In this document: piece by piece, positions 32,194 to 59,743 of the stretch
How positions within the stretch are numbered: the stretch's first letter is position 1
How the letters are laid out: each line of letters begins with the position of its first letter
Source: Agromyces seonyuensis
Lineage (GTDB): Bacteria; Actinomycetota; Actinomycetes; Actinomycetales; Microbacteriaceae
DNA length: 64,000 bases
NCBI RefSeq assembly: GCF_009789225.1
Contig: NZ_WSTA01000006.1
Location: 1 to 64,000, forward strand
Direction: 5' to 3'
The notes under the pieces: model-generated
The model's database searches: none
Seen by the model: only the letters and a program-made list of their open reading frames with translations
Told to the model about the DNA's origin: nothing
Translations under genes and position numbers: made by a program

Positions 32194-32451
32194 CTCGGGC
32201 TTCCTCAGCTTTCTCCTCGTGCATGGATGACGCAGGCACGACGAACAGCGCCCGGCCTGCACTCTTCGCTTCGACGTGAACAGTCCAGCACCGACCGCCG
32301 ACATCCATCGGTGACACGCACGGACGCCCCCGGGTTCGTGCGCGGACTCACGCTATGTAGCGCCGATCCACAGCGCAACCCGGCCTGTGGATAACTCTGG
32401 GGACAATTGCGCGGAGGTGGGGGAGAAGATGTGGACAGGGGTTGTGGAGAA

Positions 32452-48418: not shown

Positions 48419-48450
48419 GGGCCCGGTGTTTCACGTGAAACACCGGGCCC
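48419..48450. terminator. 32-bp perfect palindrome between convergent genes, with a parS core
   Basis: A 32-bp exact inverse repeat; each arm is 16 bases and begins GGGCCCGGTGTTTCAC. As RNA it would form a GC-capped hairpin between the ligase-like gene and parB, and the centre is a perfect parS (48427-48442). Confidence 0.85.
48427..48442. other. parS site (perfect) between ddl-like gene and parB
   Basis: TGTTTCACGTGAAACA, identical to the bacterial parS consensus; ParB loads here. Confidence 0.95.
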
Positions 48451-48475
48451 ATTCCGCTGTACTTCGAACCGAAGA

Positions 48476-49513
48476 TCAGACGCCGGACAGATCGTCGCCG
48501 AGCTCTCCGAGGATCCGTCGGAGGTCCTGAACGCTGGCGAAATCAATGCTGATCTGGCCTTTTCGCGCACCCAACGAGATCTTGACCCGAGTGTCGAGGC
48601 GGTCCCCGAGCCGAGTAGCGGCTTCGTCCAAGAACTCTTGGCGACGCCCCGCTGCCGGCTTCGCGCGCTTGGAGGTCGGCGCAGCAGTCGCCACTGCCTC
48701 AGCTGCACGCACGGAGAGCTCTTCGTTGATGATCTTGTCCGCCAGGTGCTGCATGGCCTCCGGCTCGTTCACCGAGAGGATCGCGCGAGCGTGTCCCGCG
48801 GACAGCACGCCGGCGGCAACCTTGAGCTGCACCTTCTCAGGGAGCTTCAGCAGCCGGATCGTGTTGGAGATCTGGGGTCGAGATCGCCCGATGCGATCCG
48901 CCAGCTGCTCCTGCGTGATGCCGAAGTCCTCGAGCAGCTGCTGATAGGCGGACGCCTCTTCCAGGGGATTGAGCTGCGATCGGTGCAGGTTCTCGAGCAG
49001 GGCGTCGCGGAGCATGTCCTCGTTCGCGGTGTCCTTGACCACCGCAGGGATGCTCGTCCGGCCTGCAGCCTTCGTCGCCCGAAGTCGACGCTCGCCCATG
49101 ACGAGCTCGTACTTGCCGTCCAGGTCCGGGTGGGGACGCACCACGATCGGCTGGAGGACGCCGAACTCCCGGACGCTGTGGACGAGCTCCGCGAGGTCCT
49201 GCTCGTCGAAGACGCTCCGCGGCTGCGCTGCGTTGGGCACGATCGACTCGGGGTCCAGCTGCAGCAGTCGAGCACCCGGGACCGTGAGCAGTGCCTCGTC
49301 CTCGCTCGCAGGCTGAGCCGGGACGATCGGCTCTTCGGTCGCGACATCGGCATCGACGGCGGAGCTCTCCGCCGGTTCCGCCGGGGGAGAGGGCGTTGCG
49401 GTCGAGTCCGGGAAGAAGACGTCGATCGGACGCTCAGCGGTGCGCTGCTCCTCCGAGATCGTCGGGATCAGTGCGCCGATGCCGCGTCCGAGTCCCGTTC
49501 GCTTCGCTGCCAT
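48476..49513 (-). CDS. parB: chromosome-partitioning protein ParB
   Basis: 345-residue CTP-dependent clamp that loads at parS and guides origin segregation. It starts MAAKRTGLGRGIGALIPTIS, has the CTP-site segment GERRLRATKAAGRTSIPAVV, LLENLHRSQLNPLEEASAYQ, the helix-turn-helix ITQEQLADRIGRSRPQISNT and a C-terminal dimer domain. A 60-residue Asp/Glu/Pro-rich linker follows the N-terminal ParA-binding end. The start overlaps the parA stop by one base (TGATG), so the two are translationally coupled. Confidence 0.96.
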   Translation of the reverse strand: MAAKRTGLGRGIGALIPTISEEQRTAERPIDVFFPDSTATPSPPAEPAESSAVDADVATEEPIVPAQPASEDEALLTVPGARLLQLDPESIVPNAAQPRSVFDEQDLAELVHSVREFGVLQPIVVRPHPDLDGKYELVMGERRLRATKAAGRTSIPAVVKDTANEDMLRDALLENLHRSQLNPLEEASAYQQLLEDFGITQEQLADRIGRSRPQISNTIRLLKLPEKVQLKVAAGVLSAGHARAILSVNEPEAMQHLADKIINEELSVRAAEAVATAAPTSKRAKPAAGRRQEFLDEAATRLGDRLDTRVKISLGARKGQISIDFASVQDLRRILGELGDDLSGV

Positions 49514-52134
49514 CAGTCGCCTCTCGTCTCTTCACCGCGACGCGCAAGCTCGGCCGCTGCCTCACGATACGACAGCGATCCCGTCGAGCTGTAGTCGTAG
49601 CTGATCACGCTCTGCCCGTAACTCGGCGCCTCGGAGACACGAACCGATCGGGGAATGATCGTCTCGAGCGTCTGCTCCGGGAAGTGCTCGCGGACCTCCT
49701 GCGCGACCTGCTGCGCAAGATTCGTGCGGGAGTCGTACATCGTGAGCAGGATCGTCGAGAGCCGAAGGTCGTTGTTCAGATGCTTCTGGATCAGATCGAT
49801 GTTGCTGAGGAGCTGCGAGAGGCCTTCGAGTGCGTAGTACTCGCACTGGATGGGGATGAGCACTTCGCGTGCTGCCACGAATGCGTTGATCGTGAGGAGG
49901 CCGAGCGACGGCGGGCAGTCGATGAACACGTACTGGAACGGCTCGTCCACGTTCGCCAGATAGGCATCGAGTGCGCGGCGGAGGCGCTGCTCGCGTGCTA
50001 CGAGCGAGACGAGCTCGATCTCGGCGCCGGCGAGATGGATCGTCGCGGGAACGCAGAAGAGTCGCTCGTGCTCGGTCGAGGGGTGCACGACTTCAGCGAG
50101 GGGGAGATCGTTGACGAGCACTTCGTAGACGCTCTGCATGTCCGAGCGATGCTCGACGCCGAGTGCGGTCGATGCGTTGCCCTGCGGGTCGAGATCGATG
50201 ACCAGCACCCTCGCACCGGCACGCGCGAGGGCTGCAGCCAGGTTGACCGCAGTCGTGGTCTTCCCGACGCCGCCCTTCTGGTTCGAGATGGTGAAGATTC
50301 GAGCCTGTTGCGGCAGCGGCAGCTGCTCACGTTCGAGCGCCATCCGGCGTCGAGTCTCGTCGGCGAGTGCGTCGGCCAGGGGAGTGCCTCCATATCGGGG
50401 CGATGTTTCACGTGAAACATCGGCGGGGGGTGGAACCTCGGGAGCGAGCCGTCGGGTGCCGGGGGGTGCAGTGTGCGCGCGAAGATCCGCATCCAGCATG
50501 CGGCCACCGGTCGCTTCCGACGTCGGCACCGCCGCGGCTTGGTCAGCGGCCGCGGTCTCGGATGTCATCGGAGGCGGCGGGGTGACGAGGAACTGATCGA
50601 CTGCCGACGCTGACGCAGACGCCGACTCGGACGAAGCAGGGCCATCCGCCACCGCAAGAGCCGCCTCGCTCTCAGCATCGACCTCGCCGGCCGGTTCTTC
50701 GCCGTCGCCTTCGCCCCCAGTGCCGTCGGACTCAACGCCGTCAGGCTCACGGTCTCCGACCTCGAGGCCGTCGGACTCAGCAGTGTCGGATTCAGCGGCG
50801 TCAGCCGCACGGTCGTCGCCGTCTCCGACGCCGCCAGGCCCAAGGCCACCAGACTCAGCACCGTCGGCCCCATCGTCTCCGTACTCGTTGTCGCCAGACT
50901 CAGCGGTCGCCCAGTCCTGACCCGTCTGCTCCGAGTGCGTGGCCGTCGCGGCATGCGGAGTCGCCGCTTCCTCGAGCGTCTGACTCGCATTGCCGTCGGT
51001 CGCGTCCATGGGACGGGGGGCCCACAGGTCCCGATCGCTCGCCTGGATCGCCGTCCATTCCGCGCCCGACGTCTCGACCCCCTCGTCGACGCCGGCTTCC
51101 TCACCGGTGTCGTCGCCCGCGGAACTCCACGCGTTCGCTTGGTCGGCATGCTCGGTCTCGTCGGTCGCGGAGGCGTCCACATGGGGTTCGACTTCGGGAG
51201 TCGCATCCAATACACCACTCACGTCAGCCTCGCTTGCCGCAAACGGTGCATCGGAGACAGTGTCGTCGTCTTCGCTGTCGGCAATGTCGACACCGACCGC
51301 GAGAATTCCATCCGTGACGGTCGACGAGGGAGCAGTGAGCTTCAGTCGCTCTTCGCGTTCGAACATGAACTCGGATCCGACCTCGGACTCAGGCCGAGCA
51401 CCGTCCTCGGCGTCCACGTCGACGACCGCGTCCAGTTCAGGCTCGTTCCGCTGCTCGACCGTCTGTTCGGTAGTCGCGACGCGGACGTCTCCAGCAGGAG
51501 CAGGGTCGACTCCGGCCTCCGAGACAGCTTCGATCTCGGACTCCGCCGGGTCCTGAGTCGGCGCGGCTTCCTGCGCGTCGCCTTCTCGAGGCGGGGCATC
51601 TCGCCATTGCGCCAGCGGGTCGAATCCAGAAGCGAAGTCGTCACCCGCGTCGTCGAGAGCAGCCGCAGTCGCTGCATCCCAGTCGATGCGAGCAGCTGGG
51701 CTGCGCTGTCCGTCAGCTCGAACCGAGTATCCGTTCAGTACCTGCGGCTCATGACGGTAGGTACCGTCGATCAACTCGGCATAGTGCTCTGTGGGGTCTG
51801 CACCGGCCCACACCTCAGCTCGACGCACCGGGTCGTTCGTCTCCCCGTACGGAGTGGGGGAGTGGTGTGACGACCGCTGAGGTGCATCGTCAACCTCCGT
51901 CTCGCTTCCCGTCACAGCGATGACGACCGGTGCCGAGGCACTCGCCGGTTCACTTGCCGACTGGACCGGGGGCCTCGAAGCGATCACCGGCGGCGCGGGT
52001 GCGGACGAATCCGGCTGCATCGCCCCTTCGGTGGCCGACTTCGACGAGGCAGTTTGTGCGAGGGTCGTCGGCGACTCATCCGCCGGCCGACGGCTCCGCC
52101 TGCGGAACCATCCGCGACCGCCGTCACCCGCCAT
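49513..52134 (-). CDS. parA: ParA chromosome-partitioning ATPase with a very long acidic N-terminal extension
   Basis: 873-residue protein. The C-terminal 263 residues (49516-50304) are a complete ParA: ISNQKGGVGKTTTAVNLAAA with the deviant Walker A, IDLDPQGN, YVFIDCPPSLGLLTINAFVA and TILLTMYDSRTNLAQQVAQE. The first 610 residues are low-complexity, acidic and rich in Ala, Asp, Glu, Ser and Gly, with a basic start WFRRRSRRPADES and few aromatic residues. GGAAGGGG lies seven bases before ATG 52134, and no internal start near the ATPase domain has a ribosome site, so the fusion is probably real. A parS site is in the coding DNA. A TTG at 52173 in frame is less likely. Confidence 0.88.
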   Translation of the reverse strand: MAGDGGRGWFRRRSRRPADESPTTLAQTASSKSATEGAMQPDSSAPAPPVIASRPPVQSASEPASASAPVVIAVTGSETEVDDAPQRSSHHSPTPYGETNDPVRRAEVWAGADPTEHYAELIDGTYRHEPQVLNGYSVRADGQRSPAARIDWDAATAAALDDAGDDFASGFDPLAQWRDAPPREGDAQEAAPTQDPAESEIEAVSEAGVDPAPAGDVRVATTEQTVEQRNEPELDAVVDVDAEDGARPESEVGSEFMFEREERLKLTAPSSTVTDGILAVGVDIADSEDDDTVSDAPFAASEADVSGVLDATPEVEPHVDASATDETEHADQANAWSSAGDDTGEEAGVDEGVETSGAEWTAIQASDRDLWAPRPMDATDGNASQTLEEAATPHAATATHSEQTGQDWATAESGDNEYGDDGADGAESGGLGPGGVGDGDDRAADAAESDTAESDGLEVGDREPDGVESDGTGGEGDGEEPAGEVDAESEAALAVADGPASSESASASASAVDQFLVTPPPPMTSETAAADQAAAVPTSEATGGRMLDADLRAHTAPPGTRRLAPEVPPPADVSRETSPRYGGTPLADALADETRRRMALEREQLPLPQQARIFTISNQKGGVGKTTTAVNLAAALARAGARVLVIDLDPQGNASTALGVEHRSDMQSVYEVLVNDLPLAEVVHPSTEHERLFCVPATIHLAGAEIELVSLVAREQRLRRALDAYLANVDEPFQYVFIDCPPSLGLLTINAFVAAREVLIPIQCEYYALEGLSQLLSNIDLIQKHLNNDLRLSTILLTMYDSRTNLAQQVAQEVREHFPEQTLETIIPRSVRVSEAPSYGQSVISYDYSSTGSLSYREAAAELARRGEETRGD
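50404..50419. other. parS site (perfect) inside parA
   Basis: TGTTTCACGTGAAACA in coding sequence, where it encodes part of DVSRETS just before the ATPase domain. Confidence 0.95.
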
Positions 52135-52389
52135 CTCGCTGCCCCTTCCGACCGCTTCGTCGGACCTGCTCAACGAGCATCCGACACGCTACCCAAGACT
52201 ATCCGTCGACCGACGACACACCGATGACCGACGTCGGCGCGGATGGCCTCGACCCGTTCTCAACTGTGGAGGACGGATGTGGAGAACGTCTTCGCCCTCC
52301 GTGGACACGTTCGGACTTCACCATGGGCCGTCACCCCCAGAACGCTGGAAACCTGCGGAACAGCCGCGTTGGGAGCCGATCCGCCCGAC

Positions 52390-52472
52390 TTATGCACAGA
52401 TCGAGCCTCGAGTTATGCACAGACCTGTGGAGAACTCCCGTGGATAATCCTGTGGAGAACTGCTGTGTATAA
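52390..52472. promoter_or_regulatory. DnaA-box cluster upstream of parA
   Basis: Four sites in 83 bp. TTATGCACA at 52390-52398 and at 52413-52421 and, on the other strand, TGTGTATAA at 52464-52472 match TTATNCACA exactly; CGTGGATAA at 52439-52447 has one mismatch. They lie 260-340 bp upstream of the parA start. Confidence 0.8.
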
Positions 52473-52888
52473 GTGCGTGGCTCGCGTCATCAGCTGGACC
52501 GTTTCGCACCTTCGCCGCCTCGACCGACTCCATTGAACACCCTGATCTCACAGGTCCACTGCAGCGCACGGGGGCAAAGCGAACCCGCTCCACCGTGCCG
52601 ACCGACTGATCGACCGCGCGCCACATCGAGGCCTCTAGTAGTCCGTCGACGTCCGGCGCGACTGAGCGTCAAGAGCACGCGCGAGAGCAACGCGTATCGC
52701 GGGTCTGTTCGCGTGCCGATGGGACGGCTTGGCTGGGAGCAGCGCAGTCAGGGGAGAACCCTCCAGCACGACAGCCTGCTCGCGAAGTGGGGAATCGTCC
52801 GAGGGAAGCCCTGGCAACTCGATGCTGCGGAACCCGAGGCTTCGGAAGCGATCTCGAGTCGAGTGGGAGGACGTCAGGACGCGCCGGG

Positions 52889-52904
52889 TGTTTCACGTGA
52901 AACA
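52889..52904. other. parS site (perfect) in the rsmG-parA spacer
   Basis: TGTTTCACGTGAAACA in non-coding sequence. Confidence 0.95.
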
Positions 52905-53041
52905 TCGCCGAATCCGTTCGACGGGCCCGTCCTCGCACCACCGCGTCGAAGGCTGCCCTGACCGTGACGGACCGATGCGCGAACTCCGCAACTCCGGCGC
53001 GAAACTACGAGACCAGGGCAGCGACGAAGAGGCTCGGAAGA

Positions 53042-53083
53042 GGAAGCAGAGGTGGAAGAGGATCGGAAGTGGAAGCAGAGGTG
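53042..53083 (+). repeat. 13-bp direct repeat in a purine-rich tract
   Basis: GGAAGCAGAGGTG occurs at 53042-53054 and at 53071-53083 (period 29 bp). The surrounding 60 bases are almost all A and G on the + strand. This asymmetric tract stands out from the local sequence. Confidence 0.7.
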
Positions 53084-54205
53084 CGCGGGGGACGCGAGGC
53101 TTCGAGAAGGTGCCGGCGACAACATCCCCAGGACACCGCCGCCGAGAATGCAATCGCCACAGACCCGGGGGGCATCAGCGGCAGGCAGACTCAGGAACGT
53201 GCGTCGGGAAGTCGTAACAATGTCCGGCCGACACCGTCAACCAGCCCCGAACCTCCTACCGCCTCGGTCGCCAGGACCCCGTCAGACGGCTTCCCTCGGC
53301 GGGCCCCGGCGGCTTCCCTCGGATGACTCCCGCGTCCGGCTCGCCCTCACGTCTCCCGACGAAGCCACCGCCCGACGACGACAAGCAGTAGTGAGCCGCT
53401 CGGCGACCAGTGACGAACTGGACCACTGCGACGACCCATCCGGCCTCAGCGCACTCAGGGAGATCCCGCATGGGCGGAGACGGGTGTTCAGGAGCCGCAA
53501 GCGCACGTCTCACCTGAACTGCCGGACTCTCGCTCCAAGCACCTCGACCCGCGAGGGGCTCCCTGCAGGAGCAGCGAGCAGAGCTGGTTTCAGGTCAGTC
53601 CCCCCACGTGACGACCGAGGATGCAGGATTCGTACCCTCCCCAGTAGGGCCTTGCCGACGCCGCCGAGCCAGGTCGATTCCGAAACTCATCCCGGCTGAC
53701 AACCGTGAACCGAGAGTTCGCTCCGGCCCTCCGCCTACGGCGCCCCATCGGGATCCCTCCGAGCATCACCGCCGAGGAAGCGCGAAGCAGCGCCTCGGCA
53801 GGCTCGCGGAGACGGCTCGGCAGTACCGCGAACCGTCGCACGGGCGATGCGATTCACGCCCTCCGACGGACCCCGCCGGCAACGGGATGAGCCGGTCGTG
53901 CTGCGCGGCAGCGTGCGGTGATCAGACTGAGCTTCACCGCATCGACGAGACACCAAACGCACGCAGCGCAGGCATCCGAAGCGCGAGAGAGCTAGACCGC
54001 CGGCTGCCGCCCTTGCCCAGCAACCGCACTCCATGCCGGCGACGACCGTCCGGAGCCAACGCGCGGTGAGGACGCCGCCCACCGACGGACGTGACGGCGA
54101 AGCTACGAACGGCACCCGCGTGACTCCCGACCACAGCGAGCCGACCTCGGCGCGAGCCAACAGAGCCGCCCTGCGTCACCCAGACGAACCTGCCCGAACG
54201 AACGA

Positions 54206-54239
54206 CGAAGGCCGCATCCCTCGCGGGACACGGCCTTCG
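54206..54239 (-). terminator. rsmG terminator
   Basis: Nine-base outer stem (CGAAGGCCG with its inverse), CA bulges and an inner TCCC/GGGA hairpin with a TCGC loop, 12 bp after the rsmG stop; GTCGTTCGTT follows on the minus strand. Confidence 0.8.
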
Positions 54240-54251
54240 AAAAGCCGGTGC

Positions 54252-54926
54252 TCAGTGCACGATCGCGCGGAACACTCGCGTGAGTTCGGCCTCCGGGACG
54301 ATGCCTTCACCGAGGACCAGAACCTCGGGCTCAGTCACCCGGTACTTGCGGAACACCTTGGCGGCGGCGTCGATCTCGCGCTCCACGCTCGAGCCCTTCA
54401 TCAGCACGAGCTCGCCGCCATCCTTCAGCAGGGGAGCGGTGATCGGGATCAACGTGCGAAGCGCGCTGACCGCGCGCGCCGTGACCTGCGTGAAGGAGTC
54501 ATCCATTCGCGCTTCCTCGGAGCGAGCACGGACGACGGTCACGTTCTGCAGTCCGAGTTCCGCGACCTGCCGCTCGAGCCACGCCACGCGCCGCTCCATG
54601 GGCTCGATCAGCACGAAGTCGACATCAGGACGCTGGATCGCCAGCACCAGGCCGGGCAGGCCGGCGCCGCTGCCGACGTCGGCAACACGGCCCGGCCGGA
54701 GCAGCGGAGCGACGAGCCCGCTGTTCAGAAGGTGTCGCGTCCACAGGCGGGGGAGTTCGAGCGGGCCGATCAGCCCGAGCTCCTCGCCGTGCTTCGTCAA
54801 CGCCGCGGCGAACGCACGAACGCCGTCGATGTGTTCGCCGAAGAACTCAGCAGCCGCGGCAGGCTCGGCTTCGACGACCGCCGGAGCGGCGACCTGGGCC
54901 GCCTCCGGCTGCTCGACGTCACTCAT
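54252..54926 (-). CDS. rsmG: 16S rRNA (guanine-527-N7)-methyltransferase RsmG
   Basis: 224 residues. After an Ala/Glu/Pro-rich 28-residue leader come RLWTRHLLNSGLVAPLL, the SAM site VADVGSGAGLPGLVLAI, FVLIEPMERRVAWLERQVAE and ARAVSALRTLIPITAPLL. It methylates G527 of 16S rRNA, a position linked to streptomycin sensitivity. It is separated from the jag gene by 30 bp holding a parS site. Confidence 0.95.
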   Translation of the reverse strand: MSDVEQPEAAQVAAPAVVEAEPAAAAEFFGEHIDGVRAFAAALTKHGEELGLIGPLELPRLWTRHLLNSGLVAPLLRPGRVADVGSGAGLPGLVLAIQRPDVDFVLIEPMERRVAWLERQVAELGLQNVTVVRARSEEARMDDSFTQVTARAVSALRTLIPITAPLLKDGGELVLMKGSSVEREIDAAAKVFRKYRVTEPEVLVLGEGIVPEAELTRVFRAIVH

Positions 54927-54940
54927 GCGCGCATCCAGTC

Positions 54941-54956
54941 CGTTTCACGTGAAACA
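54941..54956. other. parS site (15 of 16) between jag and rsmG
   Basis: CGTTTCACGTGAAACA; only the first base differs from the consensus. It fills most of the 30-bp intergenic gap. Confidence 0.85.
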
Positions 54957-57388: not shown

Positions 57389-57799
57389 TTCGTGCTCCGA
57401 ACGGGGGTTTTGTCCTCGGATCGCACAACTGCAGCGGCGGCCCGGGAAACTTCAGCGCCCTGGTTGGGCGTGGGTCAACCTCATTACCCTACGGCATGAC
57501 GCCCTGGCGGACAAAGCCCGGCGGCGCCGAAACCATCGATTATCGCCCGATACTCAGCATCCGCTCGCCGCGACACGCATCGGTCCACAGGCTGTGCGCG
57601 AGTTATTTGGCCGGAGGGTCGCACTCCGATACGTTGTCAGTCCGAGTTATCCCCAACCTGTTCCGCGAGATTCCGCCGGTTTCCCGGCTTCGCCTGCGGT
57701 GGCGGTGGATAACAGTGTGGATGAATCGAGCTCGTGCCGCTCGCTGCATCGTCGGGGGAACGATGAGCGGCGCGACATGACGTAGGGATGCGGGGAACG
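57389..57799. promoter_or_regulatory. rpmH-dnaA spacer
   Basis: 411 bp without a gene. TTATCCCCA (57647-57655) and, on the other strand, GGTGGATAA (57704-57712) are DnaA boxes with one mismatch each, suitable for autoregulation of dnaA. A minus-strand TAGGGT near 57487-57492 may be the rpmH -10. Confidence 0.65.
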
Positions 57800-59254
57800 A
57801 TGGCCGACGAGCCGACTGCCGATGAGATCTGGGCGACCGTGCTCGGACGCCTCGACGACGACGAGGCGCTCACCGAGTACATGAAGGCGTTCCTCGGTCT
57901 CGTGCGTCCCAAGGGGATCGGCGGCGGCACGTTCTACCTCGAGGTGCCCAACGACTTCACTGCGACGATGCTCAATCAGCGGATGCGCGTCGCCCTGCTC
58001 ACCGCGATGGCCTCGCTCGACCAGGCGCCGACGAGTTTCTACGTCGTCGTGAACCCGGAGCTCGAGGAGGCGCCCCGGTTCGACACCGGTCTGCCCGACG
58101 GACCGGTGCCGTCGCCCCGCGGACCGATCGGCATCGTGGGAGCGCCGGCCGACGACGTCGCGACGCCGGCCGCACCGCAGTCGGTCTTCGAGCACACGAG
58201 CCCGGAACCGCCGCGCGACTCACGGCTCAACCCGAAGTACAGCTTCGACAACTTCGTCATCGGCCAGTCCAACCGCTTCTCGCACGCGGCCGCGGTCGCG
58301 GTCGCCGAGGCGCCGGCGAAGGCCTACAACCCGCTCTTCATCTACGGCGACTCCGGGCTCGGCAAGACCCACCTCCTCCATGCGATCGGGCACTACGCGC
58401 AGTCGATGTACCCGGGCATCCGGGTGCGCTACGTCAGCTCCGAGGAGTTCACGAACGACTTCATCAACTCGATCGCGAACAACCGCGGCGCGCTCTTCCA
58501 GCAGCGCTACCGCAACATCGACATCCTGCTGATCGACGACATCCAATTCCTGCAGGGCAAGGCCGAGACGCAGGAAGCCTTCTTCCACACGTTCAACACG
58601 CTCCACGACCACAACAAGCAGGTCGTCATCACGAGCGACGTGCCGCCCAAGCATCTCACCGGGTTCGAGGACCGGATGCGGTCGCGATTCGAGTGGGGGC
58701 TCATCACCGACGTCCAGGCACCGGACCTCGAGACGCGCATCGCGATCCTGCGCAAGAAGGCGCAGTCCGAGCGGCTCATGGTCCCGGACGACATCCTCGA
58801 GTACATGGCGACGAAGGTCTCGTCGAACATCCGCGAACTCGAGGGCACACTCATCCGCGTGACGGCTTTCGCGAGCCTCAACCGCACGCCCGTCGACATG
58901 CAGCTCACCCAGACGGTGCTGAAGGACCTCATCACGGACGACTCCGACAACGTCGTGGCGCCGGTCGACATCATCACGGCGACGGCGGACTACTTCAAGC
59001 TCACGGTCGACGACCTCTACGGGTCGAGCCGGTCGCAGGCGGTCGCGACCGCACGGCAGATCGCGATGTACCTCTGCCGGGAGATGACGAGCCTGTCGCT
59101 GCCGAAGATCGGCCAGCTCTTCGGCAACCGCGACCACACCACGGTGATGTACGCCAACAAGAAGATCTCGGAGCTCATGAAGGAGCGCCGATCGATCTAC
59201 AACCAGGTCACCGAGCTGACGGCGCGGATCAAGCAGACGAGCCGGATCCGCTGA
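57800..59254 (+). CDS. dnaA: chromosomal replication initiator DnaA
   Basis: 484-residue AAA+ initiator. Domain I opens ADEIWATVLGRLDDDEALTE, a variable linker follows, and domain III has Walker A GDSGLGKT (183-190), Walker B ILLIDDIQFL and GFEDRMRSRFEWGL; domain IV ends with LPKIGQLFGNRDHTTVMYAN, the DnaA-box reader. ATG 57800 is chosen because GGGGAA lies just upstream; an in-frame ATG at 57788 would add four residues. Confidence 0.97.
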   Translation: MADEPTADEIWATVLGRLDDDEALTEYMKAFLGLVRPKGIGGGTFYLEVPNDFTATMLNQRMRVALLTAMASLDQAPTSFYVVVNPELEEAPRFDTGLPDGPVPSPRGPIGIVGAPADDVATPAAPQSVFEHTSPEPPRDSRLNPKYSFDNFVIGQSNRFSHAAAVAVAEAPAKAYNPLFIYGDSGLGKTHLLHAIGHYAQSMYPGIRVRYVSSEEFTNDFINSIANNRGALFQQRYRNIDILLIDDIQFLQGKAETQEAFFHTFNTLHDHNKQVVITSDVPPKHLTGFEDRMRSRFEWGLITDVQAPDLETRIAILRKKAQSERLMVPDDILEYMATKVSSNIRELEGTLIRVTAFASLNRTPVDMQLTQTVLKDLITDDSDNVVAPVDIITATADYFKLTVDDLYGSSRSQAVATARQIAMYLCREMTSLSLPKIGQLFGNRDHTTVMYANKKISELMKERRSIYNQVTELTARIKQTSRIR

Positions 59255-59743
59255 ATCCGAAGCTTCGCGATGCGGCGCCTGGCCCTCGGCCGGCGCCGTT
59301 TCGCGTTGCTGCGCAGTCGGCGACGGACTGACTCGGCAGCCCGGGTTCGATCCGAACCGTCCACAACCTCAGGTTGTCGGAACTCCGTGGTGTTAACAGC
59401 AGTCTGTTAACAGCGTTAACGCGTGTGGAAACTGTGGACAGTTCGTACGACCCGCGCGAACCCGCGCATCCGAGCCGATCCCCTTTGTGGAGGTCCTGTG
59501 TTAACAGCACGGATGACTCGGGGCAGCCGTCGTCGCGACCGACATCCAATTCACAAGCCGGCCCCCGGACTGAACAATTCGAGGCGGGTTGCTCGTTAAC
59601 AATCCACAAGTTATCCACACTTGTGCAATCCGTCCCGGCACGGCGCCGCGTGTGCGCCTCGTCGGGCCCACCCCCTAGCATTGGAGGGCGCGCGCGGGTG
59701 CACCGATCCCGTGAGCGCAGCCACGAGATCGACGGGAGAACGT
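59255..59743. other. probable oriC (dnaA-dnaN spacer)
   Basis: 489 bp. A perfect DnaA box TTATCCACA lies at 59611-59619, with near matches on both strands (TGTGGAAAC, TGTGGACAG, TTGTGGAGG, AATCCACAA). Five GTTAAC sites lie at 59392, 59406, 59415, 59500 and 59595, three of them within TGTTAACAGC. The spacer is richer in A+T than the surrounding genes and the position is the usual actinobacterial origin. Confidence 0.85.

Follow-up and report, generated by a model that had tools for sequence, protein, structure and literature searches.

Layout and contents of the rsmG-parA locus

The window analysed here is a stretch of 64,000 nucleotides from Agromyces seonyuensis (contig NZ_WSTA01000006.1, positions 1 to 64,000). 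In this stretch, parB, parA, a long spacer and rsmG follow one another; beyond rsmG come two more ORFs on the same strand, which we take from their gene order to be jag and yidC, and then dnaA on the opposite strand (57788 to 59254), identified from sequence. The end of rsmG is at 54252, and the gap between rsmG and parA occupies 52135 to 54251 (2117 bp); it borders parAB directly on the upstream side, with the dnaA-dnaN region some 5 kb away. The features of the locus are as follows.

48427 to 48442: perfect parS between parB and the next, convergent ORF (parS scan)
48476 to 49513, minus strand: parB, with Pfam matches to ParB_N (1.3e-30), HTH_ParB (1.5e-35) and ParB_C (1.4e-6)
49513 to 52134, minus strand: parA, 873 aa, with an AAA_31 (4.4e-59) / CbiA (4.8e-28) core (Pfam) and a 610-aa N-terminal extension
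50404 to 50419: perfect parS within the parA coding sequence (parS scan)
52135 to 54251: gene-free, putatively centromere-like spacer between rsmG and parA, without coding signal and without a Pfam, PHROG, phage or plasmid match that stands up; kilobase-long in 37 of 37 measured Agromyces loci
52278 to 52472: seven clustered DnaA-box-like 9-mers, located upstream of parA and specific to this species (9-mer scan)
52889 to 52904: perfect parS in the spacer (parS scan)
53026 to 53083, plus strand: two-copy, 29-bp purine-rich tandem duplication, copies 93% alike
54206 to 54239, minus strand: strong hairpin directly after rsmG, with no clear T run (z -3.0)
54252 to 54926, minus strand: rsmG (GidB), from a profile match
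54941 to 54956: parS with one mismatch, between jag and rsmG (parS scan)

ParA has its Walker-type ATPase domains, and the N-terminal, HTH and dimerisation domains of ParB are all present. The start of parA, the ATG at 52134, is backed by an N-terminal motif (M..GGGRGWF-like) that a loose pattern around GWF finds in 37 of 37 Agromyces loci. No Pfam match was found for the N-terminal extension (window 50305 to 52134). In Agromyces this extension is long, acidic and probably disordered, with 610 aa here and about 120 aa in L064, and a conserved GGGRGWFHRKR-like motif opens it in all 37 loci under the same loose pattern. Over its core, this ParA shares 88% identity with the proteins of A. cavernae and A. 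humatus, and A. cavernae places among the Agromyces rows on a tree of ParA core and RsmG. We also considered a conserved terminator after rsmG that would insulate the gap, and rejected it: a hairpin z below -2 occurs at this place in 4 of 37 Agromyces, including this one, versus 1 of 37 at an internal control place. Because the hairpin is not conserved, general transcriptional insulation of the spacer is unsupported.

The first-pass annotation had described a block of about 2 kb that lacks a protein-like frame and holds a perfect parS, DnaA boxes and a purine-rich repeat. All of these elements are borne out: the parS lies at 52889 to 52904, the boxes are the seven DnaA-box-like 9-mers at 52278 to 52472, and the repeat is the tandem duplication at 53026 to 53083. 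The lack of a frame is seen in three ways. The longest stop-free frame in the spacer is 243 codons, versus a mean of 210 and a maximum of 340 in 40 shuffles. The codon-position GC contrast reaches at most 0.16 over 300 bp in the gap (counted here from the farthest parA start, 2078 bp), compared with minima of 0.35 to 0.44 in rsmG, the parA core, dnaA and yidC, although the true parA extension is also weak by this measure (minimum 0.07). The best ORF under a codon model scores 2.3, and one shuffle scored 3.3.

No remnant of a gene was found in the window spacer either. When ten spacer ORFs were compared with Pfam and PHROG, no match to an ordinary or decayed gene stood up (best E 0.072 and 0.089, respectively), and a plasmid and phage nucleotide search of 52480 to 54205 (1726 of the 2117 bases) gave no match. 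Against 59 other Agromyces genomes, with five first-look candidates scored per genome, the spacer matched in six genomes, only in pieces of 26 to 46 bases, and one of these pieces is the flank of a parS. Thus, residual protein or nucleotide similarity to a decayed gene or mobile element was not found by the ORF, nucleotide and 59-genome searches. A regulatory RNA locus, which had also been suggested for this block, would suit a spacer that is non-coding and long. However, Rfam returned nothing near the gathering score, the sole match touching the spacer being a 21.9-bit hit at its edge (gathering score 40), and no conserved RNA was seen because little sequence is alignable between species. We therefore rejected this reading, which we regard as very improbable.

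Gap length and parS sites among relatives

Our comparison covers the rsmG-parA gap in Agromyces, Microbacterium, the rest of the family and a few loci of other families, and the 80 named loci in it are the best matches to this ParA and not an even sample. Gap starts were first taken at the farthest in-frame start of parA and, for Agromyces, recomputed from the N-terminal motif. The Agromyces gap measures 1151 to 5971 bp (median 2617) in all 37 measured loci (37 of 38, the contig of L055 ending before parA; L033 was replaced by the longer L230, G014 of the same genus is not included, and L071 and L072 may belong to species that other Agromyces genomes in the sample also represent). Among these close relatives no short spacer was found, so that the long gap is the rule in the genus. 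The gaps hold 102 parS in total, with at least one in 36 of 37. In Microbacterium, the gap is 660 to 6772 bp with 2 to 10 parS in each of the 12 measured loci (12 of 14; L109 and L110 have no rsmG in the stretch).

In the rest of the family, we measured 77 of 79 loci (76 genus codes; L152 and L187 were left out because their contigs end), with 78 of 83 other genera that had a match taken; one genus is represented twice, L229 being its second member, and on the tree L228 groups within Microbacterium. The gap is under 200 bp in 57 of these loci, 200 to 300 bp in two, 417 bp in one and 661 to 6786 bp in 17. A parS is present in 16 of the 17 long gaps (at least 600 bp) versus 16 of the 60 shorter ones; L052 in Agromyces and L205 among the long-gap genera are the ones without an in-gap parS at up to one mismatch. 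Of five loci from other families, four have gaps of at most 246 bp and L068 has 1170 bp with three parS, and long gaps also occur outside the family in Rothia (610 bp) and in a Flaviflexus MAG (1106 bp, five parS). The expectation that rsmG and parA normally lie almost end to end thus holds for most of the loci measured in the family. It also holds for mycobacteria, in which, according to PMC2346475, gidB overlaps parA and the two are co-transcribed, leaving no spacer between them. It fails for Agromyces and Microbacterium. On a tree of 104 rows, built from ParA core and RsmG by a quick method with no mixture model, the long or short gap state needs at least 11 changes, five of them forced by starred branches. 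The spacer has therefore arisen or been lost repeatedly.

In the 37 loci, the neighbouring junctions are tight, with medians of 27 bp (parB-parA), 38 bp (rsmG-jag) and 9 bp (jag-yidC), and the largest is 153 bp. Sampling 40 stretches of 20 kb from two relatives gave 530 non-coding runs, of which only 6 are longer than 1 kb; the longest is 1203 bp in G030 and 1956 bp in G033. With the same caller, the rsmG-parA locus gives 2375 and 4402 bp, respectively, figures that include the weakly biased start of parA, which the gene caller leaves uncalled; without the parA extension they become 1391 and 3427 bp.

The parS palindrome TGTTTCACGTGAAACA is present near the origin in this genome. With up to three mismatches, the window contains 5 sites versus 0.06 expected. 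With up to one mismatch, all 4 sites of the genome fall within 6.5 kb (48427 to 54956) and none lies elsewhere in 3.9 Mb (169 contigs); at two mismatches, one further site appears elsewhere. The spacer of this species holds only 1 of the 4. In 16 nearly closed Agromyces genomes (15 of one contig, one of two), 71 of 71 parS with up to one mismatch are within 8 kb of rsmG, a count read by eye from the site list. Genome-wide counts for 14 of the 17 long-gap genera give 62 parS, 40 of them inside the gap; 14 short-gap genomes have 42 sites in all. The fetched stretches carry a mean of 4.1 parS with a long gap versus 2.3 otherwise (p 2e-5), and the drop in parS outside the gap in long-gap loci was not significant (p 0.096). 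Longer gaps tend to carry more parS, both in Agromyces (rho 0.39, p 0.019) and in Microbacterium (rho 0.64, p 0.025), the two values being uncorrected for shared ancestry. Of additional note, the longest Agromyces spacer (5.97 kb; L230, genome G017) contains 10 of the 11 parS of its genome, and 9 of the 11 are perfect.

The gene order gidB-parA-parB of mycobacteria is the same as here, and the putative parS described there upstream of gidB and inside parA match our sites at 54941 and 50404 (PMC2346475). Two of our four positions are thus also used in mycobacteria, and the spacer with its parS seems to have been added to an arrangement that is older.

Sequence turnover and the centromere reading

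The length of the spacer is kept across species while its sequence is not, as seen from the 37 loci and from pairwise alignment compared with simulation. Apart from parS and the parA-proximal edge, the sequence is mostly unconserved; what most species have in common in the gap is parS, a few bases beside it and some 70 to 230 bp at the parA edge, and in some Agromyces groups also an inserted gene. For L034 and L036, 76% identity at 989 four-fold sites goes with only 10% of the gap alignable. The corresponding values (four-fold identity, gap aligned) are 73% and 18% for L038/L044, 84% and 47% for L062/L065, 64% and 7% for L049/L050, 76% and 46% for L042/L047, 79% and 46% for L042/L046, and 86% and 88% for the closest pair, L046/L047. 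Our control was a simulation, not matched intergenic DNA: 24% substitution with few or many small indels left 87 to 100% alignable, and 35% left 17 to 99%. By the same simulation, the pairs L054/L057, window/L230 and window/L061 are too diverged to inform. The aligned fraction, far below the simulated 87 to 100%, indicates that in most close pairs gap DNA is apparently replaced in blocks, faster than silent sites change.

A gene-like ORF (score at least 20) lies in the gap of at least 14 of 37 Agromyces (L031, L037, L042, L046, L047, L056, L058 to L060, L062, L063, L065, L071 and L230), 3 of 12 Microbacterium and 1 of 17 other long gaps, and the codon-position contrast also flags coding-like periodicity in the gaps of L039, L051 and L052. 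These ORFs differ in kind between Agromyces lineages; judged by eye, they are presumably VOC-like, DUF1254-like, tyrosine-phosphatase-like and integrase-like (a transposase in L230). Since at least 14 of the Agromyces gaps carry such ORFs, insertion and decay may be a route by which the spacer grows. The suggestion that the block is a decayed insertion therefore keeps some ground in the genus, while in the window itself no remnant was found.

The main rival to the reading that we favour below takes this route as the whole explanation: the junction would be a site at which foreign genes insert and then degenerate, the leftover DNA would be unselected, and the in-gap parS would be ordinary sites that happen to have room. 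The variety of the inserted ORFs, the fast turnover of the gap sequence and the scarcity of conserved sequence beyond parS and the parA edge all agree with it. Several observations speak against neutral insertion and decay: although the sequence turns over, none of the 37 measured Agromyces has a gap below 1.1 kb; neighbouring junctions remain tight; parS is present in 36 of 37 gaps, and its number shows a weak increase with length; and no gene remnant was found in the window spacer. We consider it unlikely. A side observation concerns base composition: on the plus strand, 35 of the 37 Agromyces spacers contain more A than T (the AT skew averages 0.09 and is about 0.2 in this species), a skew that lagging-strand mutation bias in unconstrained DNA would produce.

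Based on these findings, we propose that the block is probably the centromere region, or loading platform, that serves chromosomal ParABS, and that this platform has grown into a gene-poor spacer on several occasions. A centromere-like region was one of the possibilities raised by the first-pass annotation, and the comparison supports it, with parS in the gap, genus-wide, and recurrent in the family. From known ParABS biology, ParB would load at the parS of the spacer and nearby as a CTP-dependent clamp; the clamps would then slide over the spacer, recruit SMC and engage and activate ParA, so that the origins are moved apart. The lack of genes would free parS of coding constraint, and there may be less polymerase traffic on the spacer. 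Single-molecule work in vitro has shown that ParB can pass roadblocks by recruitment in trans, and ChIP-seq is without strong change near genes according to the authors (PMC9242446); both points count against a strong form of the polymerase-traffic idea.

The length of the spacer may itself be under selection. The weak rise of parS number with length is compatible with such selection and is no proof of it; the tight neighbouring junctions point the same way, and the genes inside at least 14 of 37 Agromyces gaps point the other way. A further, tentative extension of the centromere reading is that a length-defined bacterial "regional centromere" evolved several times in the family, selected for room and transcriptional quiet and not for sequence. 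It is equally tentative that, in such a centromere, parS would be gained and lost while the DNA between the sites is continually replaced. In the regional centromeres of eukaryotes, function is kept while the underlying sequence changes fast. The present case differs in that a short palindrome, parS, is conserved, and nothing here implies an epigenetic mark.

ParABS and clustered parS are already known; among the matches listed in the open-access literature, which covers few subscription journals, we found no description of a recurrent kilobase-long parS spacer. In Corynebacterium glutamicum, ten parS lie in 35 kb, 73 kb from oriC; as here, several parS are on one side of the origin and mostly intergenic, and ParB and SMC act there, as described in PMC7083940. 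In contrast, no Agromyces site in the genomes counted above lies more than 8 kb from rsmG, and many relatives have most of their sites together in one gene-poor spacer. Among related genera the parS-bearing spacer is long or short, with repeated switches, and the question of what it does is therefore open to comparison and to simple deletions.

DnaA-box-like sites and the parA-proximal edge

DnaA-box-like 9-mers within one mismatch of TTATCCACA number 14 in the 64 kb versus 1.34 expected. Seven of them span 195 bp of the spacer just upstream of parA, and four are spaced at 12- to 13-bp steps. We suggest that 52278 to 52472 is a species-specific candidate DnaA-binding locus that may control parAB. 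Here, parAB is presumably transcribed from its own promoter at the spacer edge, and the cluster just upstream could couple parAB expression to replication initiation.

It is possible, though we hold it with less than even confidence, that the parA-proximal part of the spacer in this species serves more broadly as a second DnaA-binding locus, acting in parAB promoter control, in DnaA titration or as an origin-like element; this idea is compatible with the other readings. Besides the density of the sites, it has a parallel in Deinococcus radiodurans, where DnaA-box-like sites lie just upstream of the parAB operon in cisII and cisMP, and where such regions are reported in PMC7671480 to act like origins on the secondary replicons. 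Those elements differ, by the same account, in being iteron arrays on secondary replicons, whereas the locus here belongs to the main chromosome, carries canonical parS and is close to the regular origin. Several observations speak against the idea: a scan of 35 other Agromyces gaps, two of them in part, never found more than one site per gap, the region matches 59 other Agromyces genomes only in five pieces of 22 to 34 bp, this species retains the conserved core of its dnaA-dnaN region, and the cluster would account for only the first 340 bp of the block. As a general reason for the gap, we rejected the cluster, since no other species was seen to have it and the spacer at large is thus left unexplained by it. 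The GC content over 500 bp stays at or above 0.63, a resolution too coarse for a short AT-rich unwinding element.

At the parA end of other gaps, the octamer AGCCTAAC (reverse GTTAGGCT), judged by eye to be -10-like, occurs in 17 of 34 gaps, always near parA, and is absent from the window. Two more DnaA-box-like sites, 57 bp apart and one of them perfect, lie in a non-coding run at window 32386 to 32451. We discarded the strands of best matches as evidence for the orientation of the origin region, since they mostly reflect the start of dnaN. The origin core between dnaA and dnaN (window 59255 to 59743), recognised by two landmarks about 163 bp apart, is inverted here and in L061 (G004). The second landmark could be located in 32 Agromyces loci, and in the other 30 of these the core has the opposite orientation.
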